Below, piece by piece: positions 48 to 10,575 of a DNA stretch of 44,198 nucleotides. Source of the DNA: a virus; IMG/VR virus record IMGVR_UViG_3300035698_001279, positions 1-44,198 of that record. One strand, given 5' to 3'. The translations under genes and the position numbers were made by a program. The first letter of the stretch is position 1; each line of letters opens with the position of its first letter. The notes beneath the pieces are model-generated. The model did not search any database. It was not told the DNA's origin and was given only the letters and a program-made list of their open reading frames with translations.

Positions 48-1106
48 ATGTATGGGAAAATATTTGATTCTATGTATGACGGGACTTTAGCCGAAGATTG
101 GCGGGCCTTGGTAACATTCCAACAGATGATTGTCTTATGTGACGCTGACGGGACTATTGACATGACTCCTGCGGCGATTTCGCGCAGAACTGGAATACCG
201 ATTGAACATATAAAGGCCGGAATCGACATCTTAGAAAATCCAGACCCATATACGCGAACTAAAGGCGACGAAGGACGGAGGATTTTAAGACTTGACGACC
301 ATCGGCCTTGGGGTTGGTCTATCGTAAATCATGAAAAATACAAGTTTATGGTGGATTCTGACACAGTTAGGGCACAAAACAGGGAACGAAAAAGAAGGCA
401 AAGATTGCGAGAATCGGGGTTAGACGACAATAAAAAGCATAAATGTGCATATTGTGGAGGCGAGGCTTACGGCCCTGACCACATAATACCTAAGAGCAAG
501 GGCGGTACTGACGAAGCTAAAAACATAGTTTCTTGTTGTAGAAGGTGCAACCAACATAAAGCCCGCCAAGATGCCGCTACTTTTATCAATGAGGCACAAT
601 ATGATTTTCTAAATTTAGATTTAATACTAGGAAACCCCAAATTGTCACAATTCGTCACGATTCGTCACAATTCGTCACGGCATACAGATACATACACAGA
701 CACAAACACAAACAAAGAAGTCAAAACCCTTGTTCGACAAGTCGAACACGACGACGGCTTTGATGCGTTTTGGAATCTTTACCCAAAGAAGCAAGGCAAA
801 GGCGCTTGTAAAAAGATTTGGAAAAAGATGAAGTTTTCTGCGGAGTTGCAAGTTAGGATATTTGCCGCAGTTGCTTACCAAAAGAAGTCAGAACAATGGA
901 CGAAAGACGGCGGGCAATTCATACCGATGCCCGCAACATGGCTGAATCAGGGCCGATGGGACGATGAAATGGAGGTCGAAAGTGGTAAAAAAAGAAGCGC
1001 TGTCGAGGATTGGGCCAGAAAGCAAACTGGTAACTCTAAAAACGATGTGCTTGTCGATGAGAGTGTTGGAGGCTACCTTTCCGAACATGAGTCTGACAGA
1101 CGATAA
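48..1106 (+). CDS. Phage replication initiator with embedded HNH-like domain
   Basis: Probable origin-binding replication protein of 352 residues. The N-terminal ~120 residues look like a replisome-organiser/winged-helix region (PAAISRRTGI, then a basic stretch near 108-121). Residues 133-167 carry an HNH-like zinc module: CAYC at 133-136, DHIIPKSKGG from 144, and CCRRCNQHKA from 163. The C-terminal part (about 238-306: FDAFWNLYPKKQGKGA, then PATWLNQGRW) matches the conserved C-terminal region of many phage replication initiators. The linker between the two is coded by 10-bp DNA repeats that look like an origin. The start has a G-run ribosome site at 37-41. The next gene is a helicase loader, which supports the role. 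An HNH module inside an initiator is unusual; it may be a structural zinc domain or an active nuclease. Confidence 0.8.
   Translation: MYGKIFDSMYDGTLAEDWRALVTFQQMIVLCDADGTIDMTPAAISRRTGIPIEHIKAGIDILENPDPYTRTKGDEGRRILRLDDHRPWGWSIVNHEKYKFMVDSDTVRAQNRERKRRQRLRESGLDDNKKHKCAYCGGEAYGPDHIIPKSKGGTDEAKNIVSCCRRCNQHKARQDAATFINEAQYDFLNLDLILGNPKLSQFVTIRHNSSRHTDTYTDTNTNKEVKTLVRQVEHDDGFDAFWNLYPKKQGKGACKKIWKKMKFSAELQVRIFAAVAYQKKSEQWTKDGGQFIPMPATWLNQGRWDDEMEVESGKKRSAVEDWARKQTGNSKNDVLVDESVGGYLSEHESDRR
642..680 (+). repeat. Four tandem 10-bp iterons inside the initiator gene
   Basis: Four consecutive 10-bp units read TTGTCACAA (degenerate first unit, 9 of 10 positions), TTCGTCACGA, TTCGTCACAA and TTCGTCACGG. 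A 10-bp period is not a multiple of three, so the repetition is not kept for the protein, which has only a low-complexity linker here. Iterons followed by a CA/A-rich stretch (681-720) and an inverted repeat (731-748), all inside the initiator gene, is the organisation of the lambda origin inside gene O. Inference: this is the phage replication origin and the gene product binds it. Confidence 0.7.
731..748 (+). other. 18-bp inverted repeat beside the iterons
   Basis: TGTTCGAC, then AA, then GTCGAACA: two perfect 8-bp arms with a 2-bp centre, 50 bp downstream of the iterons and separated from them by a CA-rich low-melting stretch. It may be part of the presumed origin (compare the palindrome downstream of the lambda iterons) or an operator. 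Confidence 0.5.
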
Positions 1107-1482
1107 ATTGGACGTATGGGCCGAACTATTAAGCGACCTTACGGAAGAACAGCTAAAAACCGGAGTTAAAACCTTCGTTCTTAAACACAAGGAAATCTAC
1201 CCAAACACGAATGTAGTTGCTTATATTCGAGAATATGGGTTGGGACTCGCAACGCAAATGACCCCTGCGGAAGCGTGGGGGCTTGTTCTTAAAGCGATTG
1301 GGTCTGTCGGGGTGTACGGAGTGCCAAAATTTGAAAACGATGCTGTGAAACGCTCTGTGGACTGCGTGGGCTGGCGAGATATTTGCATGAGCCCTAATAT
1401 CGGGGTTGAGAGAGCACACTTCATGCGGGCTTACGAGGCCTTACTGGCGCGGGACTTTCACGAACAAATGACAGGATGTTAA
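982..1482 (+). CDS. Replicative helicase loader
   Basis: Likely loads the host replicative helicase at the phage origin; the window has no helicase of its own. The pattern MRVLEATFPN...TDDKLDVWAELL followed by the C-terminal GWRDICMSPN and FMRAYEALL resembles the SPP1 gp39/G40P-loader type and related phage loaders. A GTG start at 982 is chosen because GGAGG lies 7 bases upstream, although an in-frame ATG at 964 and later ATGs at 1045 and 1057 exist. From GTG the protein has 166 residues. It overlaps the end of the initiator gene by about 125 bases in another frame, which fits a coupled initiator-loader pair. Confidence 0.75.
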   Translation: MVKKEALSRIGPESKLVTLKTMCLSMRVLEATFPNMSLTDDKLDVWAELLSDLTEEQLKTGVKTFVLKHKEIYPNTNVVAYIREYGLGLATQMTPAEAWGLVLKAIGSVGVYGVPKFENDAVKRSVDCVGWRDICMSPNIGVERAHFMRAYEALLARDFHEQMTGC

Positions 1483-1501
1483 ATAACAAAGGAGAATAAA
1501 A

Positions 1502-1666
1502 ATGGCTAATCCAAGAGGGGCCGCAAGGCCAAAAAACGGAAGTGGCAAAGGGACGGGACAAAAGGGCGGTCAGGGTGGTGGTAGAAATACAGGCGGCTGC
1601 ACTAAAGGCGGCGCTGGTGGTGGTGCTGGTGGCGGCAAAGGTAAGGGTACGGGACGTAAAAAATAG
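1502..1666 (+). CDS. Small Gly/Lys-rich basic protein
   Basis: A 54-residue gene with an excellent ribosome site (AAAGGAGAATAAAA before ATG). The product has glycine runs interspersed with Lys and Arg, a single Cys, almost no hydrophobic residues and no acidic residues. Such a composition predicts a disordered, strongly positive protein that could bind nucleic acid or condense DNA, but no family is recognised. It sits directly after the helicase loader, so a replication-associated or histone-like role is possible. The function is inferred from composition only. Confidence 0.6.
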   Translation: MANPRGAARPKNGSGKGTGQKGGQGGGRNTGGCTKGGAGGGAGGGKGKGTGRKK

Positions 1667-1676
1667 GGGGTAGGTG

Positions 1677-2093
1677 ATGAATAAATACTTAAAATGGATA
1701 ATGCTGGCGGCTGGTCTTACGATATTTTCAGTTGTGTTTCTGATGTTCGCCGTGCCGGAAGTCGAGGTCATGCCAGATGAAATCATACCGATGATGATTG
1801 TCAATCCAAGTGAGAGGCCGGAAGAACACGATTATGAAGCTGATATGGCCGCTGATTTCAACAATGAGTTTACAATATCATATGAGAACTATGGAATTAA
1901 AGGGGTGGATGAACTAGCCGAAGTCCTCGATGTGAAGCCTTATGATTCTACCAAGGCAATAGAAGTGAGTCATTTATATCTTATACAAGGCGTAAAGCAC
2001 GAATATGACATGATAGAAATGTTCCGGCGTCACGTTTTAATGATGAAACTGTCGGCGGTGAGTGAATTAAGACGGCTGGAACTTAACAAATAG
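1677..2093 (+). CDS. Single-pass membrane protein of unknown function
   Basis: 138 residues from ATG 1677; a GTG lies just before it at 1674. One hydrophobic segment (about residues 6-27, WIMLAAGLTIFSVVFLMF) is followed by an acidic soluble region of about 110 residues. The N-terminus MNKYLK is positive, so the acidic domain is predicted to face the periplasm. No lipobox or recognisable domain. It is followed closely by another small gene with a similar G-rich ribosome site. Confidence 0.6.
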   Translation: MNKYLKWIMLAAGLTIFSVVFLMFAVPEVEVMPDEIIPMMIVNPSERPEEHDYEADMAADFNNEFTISYENYGIKGVDELAEVLDVKPYDSTKAIEVSHLYLIQGVKHEYDMIEMFRRHVLMMKLSAVSELRRLELNK

Positions 2094-2102
2094 GGGGCTG
2101 TG

Positions 2103-2426
2103 ATGGCAAAGGGATGGGAGGACGTTTTGAAGGGGCTTGGACATAAAAAAGAAACGGCGATAATGGACGTAGGAATAGGCGATATTGTAGAACAGGCAAT
2201 CGGTGTTTATAGGCTATATCGAATTGGTGGCTACGATATGGTTATGGATATGATAGTTTTTAGCATGGAAAAAATGGAGAATAAAAGCTGTTACTGGGGC
2301 GACTTTATAGAAATGCAGTCGGAGGTCATGGTAATAACCCTAGAATTTATGGAAAGACTGATTGACATCGACAGGAAGGTGCTAGTCGCAGAAGGCGACA
2401 ACGGCGGGTTTGGCAATATTTGCTGA
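2103..2426 (+). CDS. Hypothetical protein
   Basis: 107 residues from ATG 2103 behind TAGGGGGCTGTG; a GTG at 2100 is an alternative. Predicted helical with many Met and hydrophobic residues (VMDMIVFSMEKME) but no clear transmembrane segment. No family recognised. Position in the early-type small gene cluster suggests an accessory role. Confidence 0.55.
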   Translation: MAKGWEDVLKGLGHKKETAIMDVGIGDIVEQAIGVYRLYRIGGYDMVMDMIVFSMEKMENKSCYWGDFIEMQSEVMVITLEFMERLIDIDRKVLVAEGDNGGFGNIC

Positions 2427-2444
2427 TTGTGATAGGGTATTTGA

Positions 2445-2774
2445 ATGGTTATTTCACGAAACAAATACAGGGCAAGGAAGGCTGAAATCGACGGGCTTAC
2501 TTTCGATTCTAATAAGGAATGTACGCGATATATGGAGTTGAAATTGCTTGTGAAGGCCGGAGAGATTAAGGAGTTAGTCGTTCACCCGATATATAGACTC
2601 GACGTCAACGACGAACATATCTGCAAATATATTGCTGATTTCAACTACAAAGACAAGAATGGTAGGGTGGTCGTCGAAGACGTCAAATCACCCGTTACGA
2701 AGAAGCTGCCGACATATAGGCTGAAAAAAAAACTTCTTCACGCGATATACGGGCTAGATATCTTAGAGACATAG
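2445..2774 (+). CDS. DUF1064-family PD-(D/E)XK nuclease-like protein
   Basis: 109 residues matching the DUF1064 pattern: NKYRARKAEIDGLTFDSNKE at the N-terminus, YMELKLLVKAGEI, then YIADFNYKDKNGRVVVEDVK and a final YGLDILE. The ADF...EDVK arrangement fits a PD-(D/E)XK active site. Members occur widely in phages near replication genes and are thought to act as structure-specific or Holliday-junction-type nucleases; that activity is inferred. No RusA or RuvC-like resolvase is seen elsewhere, so this could fill the role. Confidence 0.75.
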   Translation: MVISRNKYRARKAEIDGLTFDSNKECTRYMELKLLVKAGEIKELVVHPIYRLDVNDEHICKYIADFNYKDKNGRVVVEDVKSPVTKKLPTYRLKKKLLHAIYGLDILET

Positions 2775-2783
2775 GGGGTAAAC

Positions 2784-3005
2784 GTGGAAAGATGCAAATG
2801 GGTAGGAAATAGACAGCTTGATTATGTTTATGTTTGTAAGGAAATCGAAGCACCCAAACCCGCAAAAATAACTGAAAAGGGGTCGTGGTTTGATTTCGTA
2901 GTTTGTGCGCTTCAATGCCAAGGCTACGATAGTTTCAGCTATGACAGTAAGAACGACAAATGCACTTGTAAGGGCGATTGGCGTCCTATGATGTGGCGGC
3001 GCTAG
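2784..3005 (+). CDS. Small Cys-containing protein
   Basis: 73 residues with a GTG start behind AGGGGGTAAAC. It contains six cysteines (CKWVGN, CKEIE, CALQC, CTCKG), suggesting a small zinc-binding or disulphide fold, plus many aromatic residues. The C-terminus (GDWRPMMWRR) overlaps the start of the next gene. Not recognised. Confidence 0.55.
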   Translation: MERCKWVGNRQLDYVYVCKEIEAPKPAKITEKGSWFDFVVCALQCQGYDSFSYDSKNDKCTCKGDWRPMMWRR

Positions 3006-3493
3006 TGGACGGGTATAGGGGTAAAATAATCTACCCTAAATGGTTTTGGGGGCTTGCAGACGAAATAGGGAAAGCACGAAGCGTCTTAAACAAAAGCCTA
3101 AAGTCACGCAATAAGAAGTACCAACGCCAAGACGAACAGCGGATTGATAGGGATGGGGTGCTTGGGGAACTGATTTGCAGACATTTCCTTGAAGCCGAAG
3201 GCCTCGAATACAAAGCCGCGCCGTTGCTGTCTTTAAGACCTGAGATAACCCCTGACTTTATTATCCAAAACAAGCGATATGACACAAAGTCGGTAGGAGA
3301 AACGATGCCATTTTTTATGGTCAATTACGATTCTCATTATAAGAAAGAGTGCGACTTCTATTGGTTTGTTATTCTTGGCGAGATTGCCAGACACTATCTA
3401 TTCCGGTGGAATTGCGTTGACCTATGGCCTGTAAAGCAGATGAAATATTCAAAAGTATTGTCAATTCCGAGGGGGCTAAATGAAAATGAATAG
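2978..3493 (+). CDS. Putative PD-(D/E)XK endonuclease
   Basis: 171 residues if read from the TTG at 2978; GTGs at 2993 and 3005 are alternatives and none has a convincing ribosome site, so the start is uncertain. Residues 92-104 read PDFIIQNKRYDTK, a PD...DxK nuclease motif, with GEL (Glu 64) upstream as a possible extra metal ligand. The rest (DFYWFVILGEIARHYLFRW) resembles restriction-endonuclease-like folds. It follows the DUF1064 gene, giving two nuclease-like proteins in 1 kb. Substrate unknown. Confidence 0.6.
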   Translation: MASYDVAALVDGYRGKIIYPKWFWGLADEIGKARSVLNKSLKSRNKKYQRQDEQRIDRDGVLGELICRHFLEAEGLEYKAAPLLSLRPEITPDFIIQNKRYDTKSVGETMPFFMVNYDSHYKKECDFYWFVILGEIARHYLFRWNCVDLWPVKQMKYSKVLSIPRGLNENE

Positions 3494-3839
3494 ACGGGAC
3501 AGTTGTTTGATTGACCAAATTAAGGAAGATGTAGAAGTCGCAAGACATCAGATTCCGACATTGAGCGAAGGGACTTTGACGCCTCGACTCCTGAGAAGAA
3601 GCATTGCTTACGTTGAATTTCTTTTGGGACTTGTCGAGAAGCTGGCCGGATTAAAGACGTTGCCGCAGGGAACTGTCTTAGATGCAGACCTGATGCGGAT
3701 TTCTGACGTTGAACTCGACGGCGAGTGGATTCCGCTTGACGGTAGAACTGTCCAAGTGAAAGACGGCAATGGCTGTTTGAAGGATTGGAAGCTTCCAGAC
3801 TATAAAGGGCGGGGCAACTTCGTAATAAAATCAAAATGA
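3480..3839 (+). CDS. Hypothetical protein
   Basis: 119 residues, start ATG 3480 with GAGGGGG just upstream (a second ATG at 3486). The first half is helical (IKEDVEVARHQI, YVEFLLGLVEKL). The second half looks like a small beta domain (DGEWIPLDGRTVQVKDGNG). No family recognised. Its stop overlaps the start of the following HNH gene as ATGA. Confidence 0.55.
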   Translation: MKMNRRDSCLIDQIKEDVEVARHQIPTLSEGTLTPRLLRRSIAYVEFLLGLVEKLAGLKTLPQGTVLDADLMRISDVELDGEWIPLDGRTVQVKDGNGCLKDWKLPDYKGRGNFVIKSK

Positions 3840-4132
3840 TGATACTCAAACGAATAGAGGTTAAGGCCGAATGGTGGGCGAAAGAAGTGCGCTCAATGCG
3901 TTGCTGTGTCCCTGGATGTCTCAATGATGGTGTAGAGTTTCACCATTTGCTTAAAATGCGGTGGCGTGACGATATGGGAACGCCGCTTTGTAAGCACCAT
4001 CACACGTTTGCTAAGAACTCTATTCATATCATGGGCGACATTTCGTTCATGGCTTTTCACGGGTTCAATATATACGAATACTGGCTAAAGGTCTTAATGC
4101 CGCAATACGAACAAATGAAAGCAAACCGATAG
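3836..4132 (+). CDS. HNH endonuclease-like protein
   Basis: 98 residues. Motifs: CCVPGC, then VEFHHLL, RDD, PLCKHHH and SIH, the layout of a beta-beta-alpha-metal (HNH) nuclease of the small phage Ref/DUF968-like type. Cys ligands in CCVPGC and LCKHHH can hold a structural zinc, with the HH pair as catalytic candidates. ATG 3836 overlaps the previous stop; ATG 3839 is next. Role may be recombination or packaging-related cutting; which one is not visible. Confidence 0.7.
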   Translation: MMILKRIEVKAEWWAKEVRSMRCCVPGCLNDGVEFHHLLKMRWRDDMGTPLCKHHHTFAKNSIHIMGDISFMAFHGFNIYEYWLKVLMPQYEQMKANR

Positions 4133-4140
4133 GGGGGGCA

Positions 4141-4425
4141 ATGCTAAAACTTGTAACGGAGCCTAAAAAAAGAGAATGGCACTTGAAATGCTTTCCGATT
4201 CAAAAGACCGACGACGGGCGATATTTACACCGCTACGGATTGTCGACACCGGCTGACCTAAACTACGAAGAAACAACGGCCAGAGGTATTGGCATGAACT
4301 TTGAATTTACGTCAATGAGCCCTGACATGAACAACCCTGACGTCGCGGCGACCTTCACGAAAGCGCGGGCAATGACTGAGGCCAAACTCATAGAACATAT
4401 AAGACAAAGCCTTAATCCTATCTAA
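4141..4425 (+). CDS. Hypothetical protein
   Basis: 94 residues with a 7-G ribosome site (AGGGGGGGCA) directly before ATG. Contains KREWHLKCFPIQKTDDGRYL and a C-terminal helix (EAKLIEHIRQSL). Not recognised. It is the last gene before a promoter that opens the methyltransferase operon. Confidence 0.5.
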   Translation: MLKLVTEPKKREWHLKCFPIQKTDDGRYLHRYGLSTPADLNYEETTARGIGMNFEFTSMSPDMNNPDVAATFTKARAMTEAKLIEHIRQSLNPI

Positions 4426-4459
4426 TATATTTGACCAAAATGCTCGAAGCCTGTAAGGT
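4424..4459 (+). promoter_or_regulatory. Sigma70-like promoter for the methyltransferase operon
   Basis: AATATAT then TTGACC (4431-4436), a 17-bp spacer and TAAGGT (4454-4459). The A/T tract before the -35 is the same as at the early promoters at 39.4 and 41.1 kb. It lies about 20 bp upstream of the ATG at 4479 and is well placed to start the operon running to 8656. The -10 is imperfect. Confidence 0.5.
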
Positions 4460-4478
4460 GTTTTCACTTGGGGGGGTC

Positions 4479-5315
4479 ATGTTAAAAGCGCATACAGAAA
4501 AATTCCAAAAAGTTAGGTCTTTCATAGAAGCATCTAAATGGACTTTCGCAAAGACGATGCCTCAAAACCCGCATTGGTATGTTGTAGGGCCAACGAATCA
4601 CCCGCCGCTTATTGAAATGGCGCAGTTTACCCGCAAATATGGCTACACGCGCAAGTTTCGCGGGACAAATTACCAATGCTATGACGTCGGGCCCTTCAAA
4701 TATTGGACGATGCCAGAGCCTATCGAAGAAGTTTATCTTATAAATCGAAACTACATTAGCAAAACTATGGCCCAGCCAGAATATGACCTTATCGCGGAAG
4801 ATTACGACTTGCTTTCATTAGTGCCGGAAAGCCACGAAGAAAACTTGCTTATATCCAGTTTCCTCAAGCCATATGAGAATAAGGTAATATACGACATAGG
4901 CTGCGGAACGGGTCTTTTAGTGCAGTTGATAAACGTCACACCGTCCAAATATTTCGGCGTTGACCCATCTTCCAAAATGATAAAACAATTTGATGTCAAG
5001 CACCCGCAATATGAAAAATTTATTTCTCAGGGCAAGGCTGGGGATTTCAAAAACACCCGATGTAGCATTGCAGTAGCCTTAAACGGCTCTATCAACTACG
5101 TTTCCGACGACTATCTATTTAACATTCCAAACGAGTTTGAGAACTATTTTTTGATGTTCTTCAAGCCTGACCATTTCCCTGACATCTACGCGAAATCCGA
5201 GTTGTATATGCCGCACAGAACGACGTCTTTAAGCGAACTCACGACCCTTTTTGAAAAGGTTATTGTAACAGACCGATTCTATATTGCTCACAACTTAGAG
5301 GATATTGCGATATGA
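4479..5315 (+). CDS. SAM-dependent methyltransferase with N-terminal phage domain
   Basis: 278 residues from ATG 4479, chosen because a seven-G ribosome site lies just upstream; upstream in-frame TTG and ATG codons would overlap the promoter. Residues 10-92 (FIEASKWTFAKTMPQNPHWY through KYWTMPEPI...YLINR) form a domain I know from other phage and bacterial proteins but without an assigned function. Residues 137-147 (IYDIGCGTGLL) are motif I of a class I methyltransferase and GVDPS (160-164) is motif II. Substrate unknown; nucleic acid is plausible given the neighbouring DNA methyltransferase, overlapped as ATGA. Confidence 0.75.
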   Translation: MLKAHTEKFQKVRSFIEASKWTFAKTMPQNPHWYVVGPTNHPPLIEMAQFTRKYGYTRKFRGTNYQCYDVGPFKYWTMPEPIEEVYLINRNYISKTMAQPEYDLIAEDYDLLSLVPESHEENLLISSFLKPYENKVIYDIGCGTGLLVQLINVTPSKYFGVDPSSKMIKQFDVKHPQYEKFISQGKAGDFKNTRCSIAVALNGSINYVSDDYLFNIPNEFENYFLMFFKPDHFPDIYAKSELYMPHRTTSLSELTTLFEKVIVTDRFYIAHNLEDIAI

Positions 5316-5941
5316 TATACGAGATAGGACGGCATAAGGTAAGACATGGTGACGTCATGGAAGGTCTTGACTCATTGATGGGCGACGCAAAAGCCGACAT
5401 TCTATATTCTGACCCGCCTTGGGGCGAAGGAAATCTAAAATATTGGCAGACCATGAATGTCAAGCAGAATCCAGGCGCAGAACGAACAGAAGTCAACCTA
5501 CTGGCGTTTCTGAATAACATTTTCGACATAGCTTCAAAATACTGCAAAGAGATTTGCTTGATTGAATACGGTGTAAGATGGGACGACCTTGTCAAAGAGT
5601 ACGGCGAAAAGCACGGCTTCATTCATAACGGATTTGCAACTTCCAGATATAAGACCGGCAATGGCCCCTTGCCGTTGCATCTGCACGTTTTCTCAAGAGT
5701 GCCTTTAAACCTACCGGAATCTTACTTTAAAAGCATCGAATGGACTTATGACATGAACACGTTGCGAGCCGCCATTACTCCGTTTATCAAGCCAAACTAT
5801 ACAATCTTAGACCCTTGTTGCGGCATGGGCTTCACGGCGCAATTCGCGATAGACAACGGCCTGACTTTCTACGGCAACGAATTGAGTAATCACAGAATAC
5901 AGAAAACACTAAAGAGGCTCCGAAATGAAAATAGCAAATGA
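5312..5941 (+). CDS. DNA methyltransferase, DPPW type
   Basis: 209 residues. DPPW at 34-37 is catalytic motif IV of amino-methyltransferases (N6-adenine, possibly N4-cytosine). TILDPCCGMG (164-173) with the following FYGNEL is the SAM-binding motif I region. Motif IV before motif I is the beta-class order. The protein is short and lacks an obvious large target-recognition domain between the motifs. It overlaps the upstream methyltransferase and the downstream decarboxylase. Likely modifies phage DNA, for protection or regulation; the target sequence is not visible. Confidence 0.8.
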   Translation: MIYEIGRHKVRHGDVMEGLDSLMGDAKADILYSDPPWGEGNLKYWQTMNVKQNPGAERTEVNLLAFLNNIFDIASKYCKEICLIEYGVRWDDLVKEYGEKHGFIHNGFATSRYKTGNGPLPLHLHVFSRVPLNLPESYFKSIEWTYDMNTLRAAITPFIKPNYTILDPCCGMGFTAQFAIDNGLTFYGNELSNHRIQKTLKRLRNENSK

Positions 5942-6458
5942 AATGTTCTTGGTTCACGGGGTAGGACGCCATGAAGATAAGCTGGTAAGCTTCGAAATGG
6001 CCCTGCGCGACGCCGGAATACAAGCCTTCAATCTGGTGAGGGTGTCAAGTATATTCCCGCCGAACTGCGAACTCATAGATTCGGACGCGGGCCTAAAAAA
6101 GCTGGCCGCCGGTGAAGTCGTCTTTTGTGTATTGTCCGACGCGGCTTCAAACGAAGCAAACGAAAGACTTATAGCATCGGTATCTGTGGCGATTCCAAAC
6201 GACAAAAGCATCTATGGTTATATAGCCGAAAAGCATCATACAGGGGACTGCTACGCTTATACCGGTTCGGATTCCGAAGGTATGGCAGTCGAAATGCTGG
6301 CGACCGCGCTGGGGAGTAAGGCGTTATTCGGCGATTCCGGCTGGGTTATCGACGGCAAACATATAGAAACCCGAACAGCTTTCGTTGATAGTGGCGTATT
6401 TAAAGATGGAGAATGGACGACAGCAGTTGCAGCGGCTGTCTTAGTTGGCATTGAATGA
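5925..6458 (+). CDS. pdaD: Pyruvoyl-dependent arginine decarboxylase
   Basis: 177 residues, the usual length for this family. It would convert L-arginine to agmatine with a self-made pyruvoyl group. Residues 8-46 (FLVHGVGRHEDKL...ALRDAGI...NLVRVSSIFPP) match the archaeal and bacterial enzymes; cleavage is expected between Ser 41 and Ser 42, giving beta and alpha chains. VFCVLS (66-71), AVEMLAT and GYIAEKHH with Glu 102 as the expected catalytic acid are all present, so it looks intact. The start has GAGG 7 bases upstream. It overlaps the methyltransferase before it and the PP-loop gene after it (ATGA), so it is translated with a DNA-modification-like operon. Confidence 0.88.
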   Translation: MKIANEMFLVHGVGRHEDKLVSFEMALRDAGIQAFNLVRVSSIFPPNCELIDSDAGLKKLAAGEVVFCVLSDAASNEANERLIASVSVAIPNDKSIYGYIAEKHHTGDCYAYTGSDSEGMAVEMLATALGSKALFGDSGWVIDGKHIETRTAFVDSGVFKDGEWTTAVAAAVLVGIE

Positions 6459-7564
6459 AAATCTACAAGTCACAAAACGTATTTGACGCGGCCTTAGACC
6501 GCATTAGGTTCTTCTTCGATGAGTTTGACGACGTCGTCATAGGTATGAGCGGCGGTAAAGACAGCACGGTAACTTTCAACTTGGCTATGATAGTGGCGAA
6601 GGAGAAACACCGGTTACCCCTTAAAGTCTTATTCTTAGACCAAGAAATCGAGTGGCAGCACGTTATAGATTACATTAAGACGGTCATGTATAGGCCTGAC
6701 GTCGACCCTTTATGGGTGCAAGTGCCGTTTGATATGCCTAATTCAACGTCGACTACAAAGCATTGGCTGGAATGTTGGAAAGAGGGCGACACATGGATGC
6801 GGGACAGGGAGCCTATTGCAAGAACTGAGAACATTTATGGCAAGACAAAATTCTACGATATGTTTAATGGCATCATGGACGTTGAACACGACGGCAGAAA
6901 GTGCTGTTTGTTAGGTGGCGTAAGAACTGAAGAATCGCCAGGGCGTTTCGGTGGGCTGACCAATAGCGCTACATATAAGTGGATTACTTATGGTAAGGTT
7001 TTGAATAAGAAAAAGGAGCAATACACGTTCTACCCTATTTATGATTGGTCTTATACGGACGTCTGGAAGGCTATCAACGACAACGATTGGGATTACTGCA
7101 AAATATATGACTTCATGCACCGATACGGAGTGGCTACAAAGGACATGAGGGTTTCCAACTTGCACCACGAAACGTCGGTCAGATGGATGTTCATTCTGCA
7201 AGAAGTAGAGCCGGAAACCTACGAGAAGGCCGTTCAAAGACTTCCAGGGTTGGACATGGCCGCTAAAATGGGGAAAGACGATTATTTCGTTAGGAAGCTG
7301 CCCTTCATGTTCGCATCTTGGGAAGAATATCGGGATTATCTACTCGACAAGCTAATCACAAATGAGAAGTGGAAGGCTGGATTTCAGAAGATGTTCAAGA
7401 AATTGGACTCCATCTACTTGAACGAATTAGGCGATAAGCTATATAAGACGGAAATCTCGTCTATTCTTACAAACGACTTTGAATATACAAAACTCAAGAA
7501 CTTTGAAAGTAGGCCGGAAATGCAAAGGGTCAAGAAACGGGCGTTAGGGGTGGAATTATGGTAA
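6455..7564 (+). CDS. PAPS-reductase-like PP-loop protein (IbrA-like)
   Basis: 369 residues. MSGGKDSTV (31-39) is the PP-loop of N-type ATP pyrophosphatases, and LFLDQEIEWQ and LLGGVRTEES fit the PAPS-reductase fold. The C-terminal half resembles the DUF3440 extension of IbrA. It is paired with a ParB-like gene, as IbrA is with IbrB in enterobacterial prophages. Family members activate a substrate by adenylation; true sulphate reduction is not established for IbrA. Possible roles are DNA modification (compare DndC, also of this fold) or transcription control. Confidence 0.8.
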   Translation: MKIYKSQNVFDAALDRIRFFFDEFDDVVIGMSGGKDSTVTFNLAMIVAKEKHRLPLKVLFLDQEIEWQHVIDYIKTVMYRPDVDPLWVQVPFDMPNSTSTTKHWLECWKEGDTWMRDREPIARTENIYGKTKFYDMFNGIMDVEHDGRKCCLLGGVRTEESPGRFGGLTNSATYKWITYGKVLNKKKEQYTFYPIYDWSYTDVWKAINDNDWDYCKIYDFMHRYGVATKDMRVSNLHHETSVRWMFILQEVEPETYEKAVQRLPGLDMAAKMGKDDYFVRKLPFMFASWEEYRDYLLDKLITNEKWKAGFQKMFKKLDSIYLNELGDKLYKTEISSILTNDFEYTKLKNFESRPEMQRVKKRALGVELW

Positions 7565-8115
7565 ACGAACACAATCCGGTTTCAGATGTTCGATGGGTGT
7601 CAATCGACAAGGTCAAGGCTAATGACTACAATCCGAACACAGTTGCTAAAAACGAAATGCGATTGCTTTACGTTTCCATTAAACACGACGGCTATACACA
7701 GCCCTGCGTCACCGTACATGACCCCGAGAAGGACGAATATACAATCGTCGATGGTTTCCATAGATACTTAGTGATGAAGTCGTTTAAGGACATTTACGAC
7801 CTTAACGGCGGTTTGCTTCCCATCGTCGTTATCAAGAAGGACATAAACGACCGTATGGCTTCCACAGTCCGGCACAACAGGGCAAGGGGCAAACATTCTA
7901 TGACCGGCATGGCCTCAATGGTGTTTGAAATGCTCGACAACGGGTGGAAGGACGCTGAAATCTGCAACGAACTTGGTATGGAGGCCGACGAACTCGTAAG
8001 GCTAAAGTACGTCACCGGATTTGCCAAGCTATTTGAAAGCACGGAGTATAAGAAGTCATGGGAAACTAAAAAAATGATAAAAATGAGGAGCGACGCCAAT
8101 GGAAATCAAGATTGA
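7558..8115 (+). CDS. ParB-like protein (IbrB-like)
   Basis: 185 residues from ATG 7558 with an AGGGG site upstream, overlapping the PP-loop gene by 7 bases. The ParB N-terminal fold is shown by WVSIDKVKANDYNPN, YTIVDGFHRY and RHNRARGKHS; VDGFHR is the nucleotide-binding loop (ParB-like domains bind and hydrolyse CTP or ATP). A helix-turn-helix-like region follows (DAEICNELGMEADELVRLK). Partner of the gene upstream; together they match the IbrA/IbrB arrangement. Confidence 0.8.
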   Translation: MVNEHNPVSDVRWVSIDKVKANDYNPNTVAKNEMRLLYVSIKHDGYTQPCVTVHDPEKDEYTIVDGFHRYLVMKSFKDIYDLNGGLLPIVVIKKDINDRMASTVRHNRARGKHSMTGMASMVFEMLDNGWKDAEICNELGMEADELVRLKYVTGFAKLFESTEYKKSWETKKMIKMRSDANGNQD

Positions 8116-8656
8116 AACGGTCAATATAGACCTTATAAAGCCGTATTGGAGAAATCCGCGTAACAACGACCAAGCAATCGAGCCGGTAAAAGAGTCAATC
8201 AAACGCTTCGGCTATACACAGCCTATCACTCTCGACAAAGAGAATGTAATAGTCACCGGCCACACGAGGTATAAAGCACTAAAGCAACTCGGAATCACCG
8301 AAATTCCCTGTATTCGACTCGACTTATCACCTCAAAAAGCTAAAGAATATCGCATAATTGACAATAAGACGTCTGAATTTGCGTCATGGACAAACGATTT
8401 CGTGGTAGAATTACGAGAGTTTGAGGACATAGAGTCATGCGAAGTCTTTTTCCCTGACATCGACATCGGGTCGATTCTTAACAATTCGGTCGGGATGAAG
8501 TATAAAGACGTGAACAAGACCGATATAAGCAAGCAGTCTGATGAACTCAACAACAAATTTAACGTCGGAGGGAACGATTCTGACAAACTAGAACTGATAT
8601 GCCCTGAGTGCGGTAATACGTTCTACGTCACAAAACATGATTTCGATACCAGATGA
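8099..8656 (+). CDS. Second ParB-like nuclease-fold protein with zinc ribbon
   Basis: 185 residues. N-terminal ParB/Srx-like domain: LIKPYWRNPRNNDQAIEPVK, then YTQPITLD and VIVTGHTRYKALKQLG. A C-terminal CPECGNTFYV suggests half of a zinc ribbon. Proteins of this kind often lie next to phage terminase genes, as here. It overlaps the IbrB-like gene by 17 bases, with GGAG upstream of its ATG. Possible roles are DNA binding at packaging or regulation of modification; not determinable from sequence. Confidence 0.75.
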   Translation: MEIKIETVNIDLIKPYWRNPRNNDQAIEPVKESIKRFGYTQPITLDKENVIVTGHTRYKALKQLGITEIPCIRLDLSPQKAKEYRIIDNKTSEFASWTNDFVVELREFEDIESCEVFFPDIDIGSILNNSVGMKYKDVNKTDISKQSDELNNKFNVGGNDSDKLELICPECGNTFYVTKHDFDTR

Positions 8657-8663
8657 GGATAAT

Positions 8664-9239
8664 ATGAAGAAAAAGAAGGAAGTCACAGCAAAACCCAAGG
8701 CCAGAAAAACAACTCAAACAAAACCGGCGACCATGAAGGCTTTAAACGAAGTCGATTATGTCCATCTTGAAGGGCATTTCGGCAAGTTTGAAGTCAGGAA
8801 AACAGCTAATGCATGGTGGGGAAGCCAGTTTAACGGGCCCTTAAAACTGATTGAGTTTCTGAACGCCATAAAGATGGATATGCCTACTCTAAGGGCGTCA
8901 GCTTATGCCGGTTTGACACGGAATCAGATAGAATACTTCTTGAGATTGCATCCAGAGATTTCAACAATTCTGCCACCTTTACGGGAAAGTGTTAATATAG
9001 CGGCAACTGCGAACATTGCCAAAGCTGTCATGGGGTCAAAAAAGGAAGGCATCTTGCCAAGTCTTGAGACTTCCAAGTGGGTTGCGGAACGTCGCATGAA
9101 GGCTGAATACTCGATAAGAACTGAACTCACAGGGGCCGACGGTAAGGGCTTGACTGATTTGGACGACGAACACCAAGCACGAATCGCAAACGCAGTCTTG
9201 AAATCAATAGAAGCCAAAAAGAAAATAGAAAATGAGTGA
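8664..9239 (+). CDS. terS: Terminase small subunit
   Basis: 191 residues from ATG 8664 (GAGG 8 bases upstream); an upstream ATG at 8637 lies inside the previous gene and is less likely. After a Lys-rich N-terminus, residues about 55-100 look like a helix-turn-helix (LRASAYAGLTRNQIEYFLR), followed by helices typical of small terminases (SLETSKWVAERRMKAEYSIR) and a conserved end. It would recognise the packaging site and feed DNA to the large subunit encoded next. Confidence 0.8.
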   Translation: MKKKKEVTAKPKARKTTQTKPATMKALNEVDYVHLEGHFGKFEVRKTANAWWGSQFNGPLKLIEFLNAIKMDMPTLRASAYAGLTRNQIEYFLRLHPEISTILPPLRESVNIAATANIAKAVMGSKKEGILPSLETSKWVAERRMKAEYSIRTELTGADGKGLTDLDDEHQARIANAVLKSIEAKKKIENE

Positions 9240-10575
9240 CATCTTCGAGTTGGCACAGAGCAATTTAACAGCTTACGCTCAAGTCATGTGGAAGGATTAC
9301 ATGACCCCTGAACACGTTTTGAAGCTGAACGCCTATCTCGAAAAGGTCGAATCCGGCGAGATAACCCGTCTTTTAGTGTCCATGCCTCCACGACATAGTA
9401 AGTCAATGAACGTCGCACAGTATTTTCCGGCTTGGTTCTTGGGAAGAAACCCCGATAAGGACGTCATATATTCGAGTTATGCACAAGACCAAGCTACGAA
9501 GTTTGGCCGATTGGTAAGAAGCCAATTTTCTGAGCCTTCCTTCATTAAGATGTTTCCAAACGTCCATATCACCCCTGAGAGCAAGGCCCGCGACAGATTC
9601 ATAATGACTGATAAGGGCTCGTACTATGCGGTCGGTAGGGGCGGCCCTATCACCGGCAAAGGGGCTGATTTGTTCATCTTGGACGATATGTATAAGGACA
9701 ATAAGGAGGCTGAGAGCAAACTCGTAAGAAAAGGTGTGATTGATTGGTATAAAGCAGTAGCTTCCACAAGACTGCAAAAAGGCGCTAAGGTTGTCATGTG
9801 CGGAACTCGATGGAACGAGGACGATTTGATAGGCTGGGCGCAGAAGTCATTAAAAGACCAAGGATGGGTCGTTTTGAACTTCCCAGCTATCAACGCAAAA
9901 GACGAGGCTCTATGGCCTGAGATGTTTCCGCGTGAAAAACTGGAAGAAGTGAAAAGGACATTGGGCCCTTATTTCTGGAACGCTTTATATATGGGGCGGC
10001 CATCGTCACCGGAAGGCAATATCTTTAAAAGGAAAAGCTGGCAATTCTACACCGAACTACCTCCGAAATTCGATACGGTCATTCAGTCATGGGACGCGAC
10101 TTTCAAGAAAACTGAGGCTGGGTCTTATGTGGTGGGCCAGGTTTGGGGCAAGATTGGGCCTCGTTATTATCTCATTGACCAAGTAAGGCTGAGAATGGGC
10201 TTCACAAAAACGGTTGAGTCGATTATGATGGTGTCCAGAAATTATCCAGAATCATACGAGAAACTAATTGAGGACATGGCAAACGGCCCTGCAATTATTG
10301 AAGTTTTACAAGATAAAATAGAGGGTATCATACCAATAAGACCAGACGGCGGCAAAGAGGCAAGAGCAAACGCCATGAGTTATATACAGGAAAGCGGCCA
10401 GATATACCTACCAAAGCCGGAAATCAGAAGTTGGGTTGAGGACTATATCGAAGAACACGCCGCCTTTCCAAATGCCGATAGGGACGACCAAGTTGACGCA
10501 ACGACACAGGCTATAAACTATATGCGTTCTGAGGGCAATCCGATGGAGAGACTGCAAGATATGCTTAATTTTTAG
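9232..10575 (+). CDS. terL: Terminase large subunit
   Basis: 447 residues, normal length. The N-terminal ATPase has a Walker-A-like MPPRHSKS (51-58) and Walker B LFILDD (147-152). CGTRWNEDDL is the coupling region. The C-terminal RNase H-like nuclease has SWDATFKK (Asp 288) and DRDDQVDA near the end. It packages DNA into proheads. ATG overlaps the small subunit by 8 bases with no clear ribosome site, so coupling is likely. The short R-type Walker A (PRHSKS) is common in this terminase group. Confidence 0.93.
   Translation: MSDIFELAQSNLTAYAQVMWKDYMTPEHVLKLNAYLEKVESGEITRLLVSMPPRHSKSMNVAQYFPAWFLGRNPDKDVIYSSYAQDQATKFGRLVRSQFSEPSFIKMFPNVHITPESKARDRFIMTDKGSYYAVGRGGPITGKGADLFILDDMYKDNKEAESKLVRKGVIDWYKAVASTRLQKGAKVVMCGTRWNEDDLIGWAQKSLKDQGWVVLNFPAINAKDEALWPEMFPREKLEEVKRTLGPYFWNALYMGRPSSPEGNIFKRKSWQFYTELPPKFDTVIQSWDATFKKTEAGSYVVGQVWGKIGPRYYLIDQVRLRMGFTKTVESIMMVSRNYPESYEKLIEDMANGPAIIEVLQDKIEGIIPIRPDGGKEARANAMSYIQESGQIYLPKPEIRSWVEDYIEEHAAFPNADRDDQVDATTQAINYMRSEGNPMERLQDMLNF

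Follow-up and report, generated by a model that had tools for sequence, protein, structure and literature searches.

Related enzymes and gene systems

The pyruvoyl-dependent arginine decarboxylase (PvlArgDC, or PdaD) of Methanocaldococcus jannaschii is known from solved structures (PDB 1n2m, 1mt1 and 2qqd). The viral protein described here shares its full-chain fold, its Ser-Ser cleavage pair and equivalents of its residues Asn47 and Glu109. It differs in being phage-borne, in sequence (31% identity in the structural alignment), in carrying Glu24 for Asp35 and in having extra residues in its C-terminal part. The closest named cellular relatives (39-46%) are the PvlArgDCs of Thiodictyon and the Archaeoglobales. 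These form the Glu24 subtype and share the motifs HxxxLxxFE, VSSIxPP and GYxxExH, but their genes are chromosomal or plasmid-borne, with an agmatinase adjoining in Thiodictyon and no IbrAB annotated beside them.

Polyamine enzymes are established among viral genes, as the original prediction noted. However, the phage pyruvoyl-dependent arginine and ornithine decarboxylases reported so far, described in a systematic study of such enzymes in viruses, derive from AdoMetDC (Li et al. 2023, PMC9992855). They too can make agmatine, but their fold is not homologous to that of PdaD (the same paper names the M. jannaschii enzyme as having a different fold) and no linkage to IbrAB has been reported for them.

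Three further systems resemble the surrounding genes. The phage IbrA/IbrB pair (PMC4541368, PMC4490671) corresponds to the two genes directly 3' of the viral PdaD gene; the published examples are without PdaD. In the CmoA/CmoX/CmoY system of cytosine hypermodification (PMC12783734), CmoY, an AMP-forming ligase resembling asparagine synthetase, couples glycine to a modified cytosine, and genes with ParB domains are often found close by. The logic of joining an amine to a phage base in this way may be shared, whereas neither CmoA nor a C5-methyltransferase was found in our locus and its candidate ligase is PAPS-reductase-like. Finally, Dnd phosphorothioation also employs a PP-loop enzyme acting on DNA (DndC).

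The sequence analysed here (the window) comprises a 44,198-bp virus record from IMG/VR. The enzyme family is a known one, but its viral setting appears to be unreported, and the genes that repeatedly accompany it suggest a chemistry that can be tested directly. The window phage is a myovirus, with genes for portal, major head, tail sheath, baseplate, endolysin, an Erf-like protein and a replication initiator. A search with its first 25 kb found no close DNA-level relative among isolate phages. Misassigned host DNA is ruled out by the head, tail, lysis and terminase genes of the window and, for the related contigs described below, wherever terminase genes adjoin PdaD; this conclusion covers the window and those contigs, with some large non-cassette contigs (L022, L030 and L032) outside it. 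At 48-1106 the window also encodes a replication-initiation-like protein, apparently with an HNH endonuclease domain inserted.

The decarboxylase gene and its product

The open reading frame predicted at 5925-6458 is present exactly, and it encodes a real pyruvoyl-dependent arginine decarboxylase of the PdaD type. PF01862 is matched over profile positions 2-161 of 161 (E=1.4e-48; 165 bits against a cut-off of 22.7), TIGR00286 scores 140.7 (cut-off 106.95) and phmmer finds M. jannaschii PvlArgDC at E=3e-12. PF02675 (AdoMet_dc) has no match anywhere in the window record.

Comparison of a predicted structure with archaeal PdaD, one of the checks originally suggested, gave the same answer. We used an AlphaFold2 model built from 26 relatives (pLDDT 94.7, pTM 0.89). 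The best 12 PDB matches found by Foldseek are all M. jannaschii PvlArgDC (E 1.7e-18), and structural alignment with this enzyme (VIA) gives Z 22.1 and 1.9 A over 154 residues. The next-best structural match is a pyruvoyl histidine decarboxylase at Z=6.4.

The self-cleavage site and catalytic glutamate had been recognised correctly: Ser41-Ser42 and Glu102 align with Ser52-Ser53 and Glu109 of M. jannaschii. Together with Asn36 these residues are kept in 33/33 viral copies (see below), which suggests that selection has maintained an active enzyme. Glu102 is also kept in all 52 cellular copies compared. On the substrate side, M. jannaschii Asp35 is replaced by Glu24 in the window protein, and substrate preference could therefore differ. 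The change is also found in a cellular subgroup: 19 cellular relatives have the Glu form, one of them adjoining an agmatinase. With this fold and these residues, the enzyme is predicted to yield agmatine in the infected cell.

The gene neighbourhood

The genes around PdaD are listed in Table 1. Translational coupling had been proposed, and the reading frame does overlap the upstream MTd by 17 bases and the downstream IbrA by 4 (ATGA). Two methyltransferase genes lie 5', as described, and the PP-loop and ParB-like genes 3' can now be defined more closely as IbrA, IbrB and a second ParB-domain protein, ParB2.

Table 1. Features of the decarboxylase locus (positions in the window)
Feature	Position	Strand	Remarks
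MTc, class I methyltransferase, TTG start	4431..5315	+	Methyltransf_25 E=3.9e-6; relatives recur in cassette
MTd, small N6/N4 DNA-methylase-like protein	5312..5941	+	DPPW and DPCCGMG motifs
AAAGAGG, ribosome-binding-site-like	5911..5917	+	7 bases 5' of ATG; read from sequence
PdaD-type pyruvoyl-dependent arginine decarboxylase (PvlArgDC) proenzyme	5925..6458	+	177 aa, ATG start
Asn36 codon	6030..6032	+	Counterpart of M. jannaschii Asn47; kept in 33/33 viral copies
Ser41-Ser42 self-cleavage pair	6045..6050	+	Aligned to M. jannaschii Ser52-Ser53; 33/33 viral copies
Glu102 codon (in GYIAEKHH)	6228..6230	+	Counterpart of M. jannaschii catalytic Glu109
IbrA-like PP-loop protein, PAPS-reductase domain and DUF3440	6455..7564	+	PF01507 E=1e-15, PF11922 E=1e-6, phrog_2302 E=7e-81
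IbrB-like ParB-domain protein	7558..8115	+	phrog_2159 E=2.5e-70; PF02195
ParB2, second ParB-domain protein, C-terminal CxxC	8099..8656	+	phrog_620 E=1e-42; phrog_498 DNA methyltransferase E=6e-31
Small terminase candidate	8637..9239	+	Precedes large terminase; 39% identical to same-position protein of related viruses
Large terminase subunit	9232..10575	+	phrog_38 E=8e-114; Terminase_6C

MTd matches phrog_67 (DNA methyltransferase, E=1e-10), PF01555 below its cut-off (E=2.4e-4) and a PADLOC type II methyltransferase. ParB2 matches PADLOC MTase_II (E=3e-21), is similar to the N-terminal half of fused ParB-methyltransferase proteins and has conserved cysteines at 168 and 171. The window IbrB is 56-58% identical to the IbrB of other cassettes with PdaD. 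MTc was considered as a CmoA-type Cx-SAM synthase and rejected, no CmoA model being matched; its N-terminal half (4431-4850) has no Pfam match at all and is possibly a new domain.

The DNA-methylase-like, class I methyltransferase, ParB and PP-loop genes of the window all fit DNA hypermodification, and related cassettes further encode glycosyltransferase (GT)-like, N-acetyltransferase (GNAT) and oxygenase-like proteins. In composition the cassette thus resembles a DNA-modification system, which would be its probable function.

IbrA carries the ATP-pyrophosphatase motif SGGKDS at residues 32-37, and its model (pLDDT 89) lies closest, among solved folds, to FAD synthase, CysD and APS reductase, a set that includes enzymes transferring adenylyl groups. 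Residues 260-369, the C-terminal helical DUF3440 region, are barely covered by these solved-structure matches. A role for IbrA in sulfur transfer, like that of DndC, was also considered, since it matches DndC weakly (E=2e-8). Unlike in the Dnd system, however, no neighbouring gene matches a DndD or DndE model. Moreover, none of the cysteines is strictly conserved among 73 phage IbrA proteins (the best column reaches 74%), which argues against sulfur transfer. The modelled fold and the motif would fit adenylate chemistry better, without proving it.

PdaD genes in other viruses

PdaD is rare among known viral genes. Three divergent queries matched nothing among 50,697 phage genomes, no PHROG family was matched, and the fold has no BFVD match at E<=0.001. 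In the literature on viral PvlArgDC, on K02626 in viromes and on agmatine in DNA modification we found nothing relevant beyond PMC9992855.

Scans for viral PdaD with single sequences and with a two-sequence profile also found none. Widened profiles, in contrast, recovered 32 further distinct copies from IMG/VR, giving a viral set of 33 sequences with that of the window. These overturn the reading that PdaD is unique to this virus. PdaD-fold arginine decarboxylases thus appear to have been unreported in viruses until now, and they occur in diverse uncultured phages.

Of the viral loci, 15 are not part of the cassette; some of these belong to large phage genomes or adjoin genes for tail or lysis proteins. 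In L029 (about 471-5463), for example, PdaD follows, at a distance of a few genes, what look by eye like tail-sheath and tail-tube genes, an unusual site for a metabolic gene.

A common phage cassette with and without PdaD

The linkage seen in the window recurs in other phages; its absence from related phages had originally been named as a refuting outcome. A search for the same neighbourhood in other phages, also suggested originally, identified 17 more contigs in which PdaD accompanies IbrA, IbrB, ParB2, methyltransferases and GT-like proteins, as a full or partial set, just 5' of the terminase. The set is full in L042, L047-L050, L056 and L060, and partial or rearranged, with several contigs ending within it, in L038, L043, L044, L051-L055, L057 and L059. 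In L042, L048 and L050 the order is IbrA-IbrB-ParB2-PdaD-MTd-GT-GT-TerS-TerL, with variants in L047, L049, L056 and L060/L061. L043 is rearranged (GT-GT-MTc-PdaD-IbrA-IbrB-IbrB-like-TerS-TerL). The GT1 of the cassette belongs to phrog_854 ('glucosyltransferase'). When whole records were searched, IbrA was found in 7/7 cassette records versus 0/16 other PdaD virus records. The nearest terminase relatives of the window phage (L016-L020) are without PdaD; the two with sequence available 5' of the terminase (L017 and L019) have a ParB-methyltransferase fusion there instead.

The gene context had been singled out as unusual, and it does matter; the cassette itself is widespread and usually without PdaD. 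In the 80 IMG/VR loci nearest to the window's IbrB, PdaD is found in none, IbrA in 79, ParB2 in 68, MTc in 49, the large terminase in 41, GT1 in 39 and MTd in 28. The cassette thus does not need PdaD, which is an uncommon, interchangeable module of a common phage cassette.

The slot directly before IbrA, which is the place of PdaD in the window, is occupied in these 80 loci by MTd (20), oxygenase-like proteins (13), GNATs (12), GTs (9) or MTc (8). In one locus (L092, 227-658) it holds an AdoMetDC-fold (SpeD-like) protein (PF02675, E=5e-21). Here the PdaD slot is filled by another kind of pyruvoyl decarboxylase, not homologous to PdaD; the substitution is striking but a single case.

The oxygenase-like proteins form a family of about 170 aa (L103, 5207-5740; L071, 4312-4824; and 11 related loci); their label is taken only from HxD...H motifs, with no support from Pfam and no good PHROG match. 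The GNATs are small (for example, L066, 3827-4192; L065, 5411-5776; L082, 5349-5744), and one has a weak match to the Mom family of DNA modification. A small GNAT of the same type adjoins PdaD in L053 and L060.

Independent recruitment

We placed 85 PdaD sequences in a maximum-likelihood tree, where 16 cassette copies group together as a viral clade with support of 98/92. The window PdaD, on a long branch, belongs to a separate clade (support 100/99) that also contains archaeal, bacterial and further viral copies. A single clade of cassette copies, under a constraint applied to those other than L043, is rejected by the AU test (p=0.0004). With a single origin rejected by both tree and test, PdaD has joined the cassette at least twice. 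The tree position of L043 is unreliable (long branch) and we do not count it as a third certain recruitment.

How often such linkages would arise by chance depends on the frequency of IbrA. The probability of at least two IbrA linkages among approximately 11 viral PdaD lineages besides the window is approximately 0.001 at the rate seen in isolate phages (214/50,697), 0.02 at a base rate of 2% and 0.10, which is not significant, at 5%; L043 is counted among the two events in this calculation, and the rate in IMG/VR may differ from that in isolate phages.

Possible functions

We favour, with a probability of about 0.38, the reading that PdaD is a cassette module making agmatine to be used locally, most likely to supply the amine for a phage DNA modification. 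The PdaD chain would cut itself between Ser41 and Ser42, Ser42 would become the pyruvoyl cofactor, and Glu102 would protonate the product to give agmatine, which neighbouring cassette proteins would consume locally. IbrA could activate by adenylation a group on the DNA itself or one on a base that MTd or MTc has previously altered. Attack by agmatine on the activated group would then leave the phage DNA with a positively charged side chain that hides the DNA from nucleases and neutralises charge before packaging. Given the precedent of CmoY, agmatine would be the amine in an analogous reaction; counting against this, the top IbrA folds include no demonstrated amine ligase. A more specific form, in which IbrA attaches agmatine to a DNA base with IbrB, ParB2 and the methyltransferases, by analogy with lysidine and agmatidine in tRNA, so that the virion DNA would carry its own counter-ions, seems to us less likely.

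If local use in DNA modification is correct, a charged base bearing an amine would have consequences for evading restriction, for packaging and for tools that label DNA. The recurrent capture of PdaD also provides a small-molecule candidate for the role of a common, uncharacterised IbrA/IbrB/methyltransferase/GT cassette.

Agmatinase, agmatine deiminase and AdoMetDC were all absent from 23 records including the window, some of which may be fragments. Agmatine therefore looks like a virus-made end product, and a complete viral polyamine pathway was rejected. Together with the convergent linkage, this favours use by the neighbours over polyamine supply or packaging, though not decisively.

Indeed, supply of polyamines or counter-ions is nearly as likely, because in the window's own clade most of the other phages with PdaD are without the cassette, so that PdaD can serve phages that lack it. 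Agmatine, as a divalent cation or as putrescine made by host enzymes, would then aid DNA condensation, packaging or translation, and the position beside the terminase or IbrAB would be incidental. The 15 viral loci outside the cassette point the same way, as do the established viral polyamine enzymes, including the non-homologous phage arginine decarboxylases (PMC9992855). Hosts may be able to process the product: cellular PdaD is common in some phyla (136/148 and 90/249 genomes), and one copy lies beside an agmatinase. This explanation leaves unaccounted for, however, the recruitment at least twice into the same modification-like cassette and the AdoMetDC-fold protein in the same slot of L092, and none of the 23 records has a polyamine-processing gene.

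We consider it still less probable that PdaD is a passenger in a pre-terminase accessory hot spot with a host-directed effect, such as arginine drain, acid tolerance or nitrogen use. Bacterial relatives of PdaD do have acid- and arginine-linked roles. The region before the terminase gathers accessory genes, many of them swappable, and shared location alone is thus weak evidence for a common function. Nevertheless, the other occupants of the slot are nearly all group-transfer or oxidising enzymes and not random morons, and the ATGA overlap of PdaD with IbrA in the window and the invariant catalytic residues of the viral copies are not what a passenger would suggest.

Least probable of all is a self-processing enzyme whose substrate is not arginine but a derivative of it, ornithine or some modified amino acid: the change of Asp35 to Glu24, the long branch of the window protein and the substrate switches of the unrelated viral AdoMetDC-fold enzymes (PMC9992855) would allow it, but the Glu form also occurs in the 19 cellular relatives, including that beside an agmatinase, and 17 of the 18 cassette copies retain Asp.
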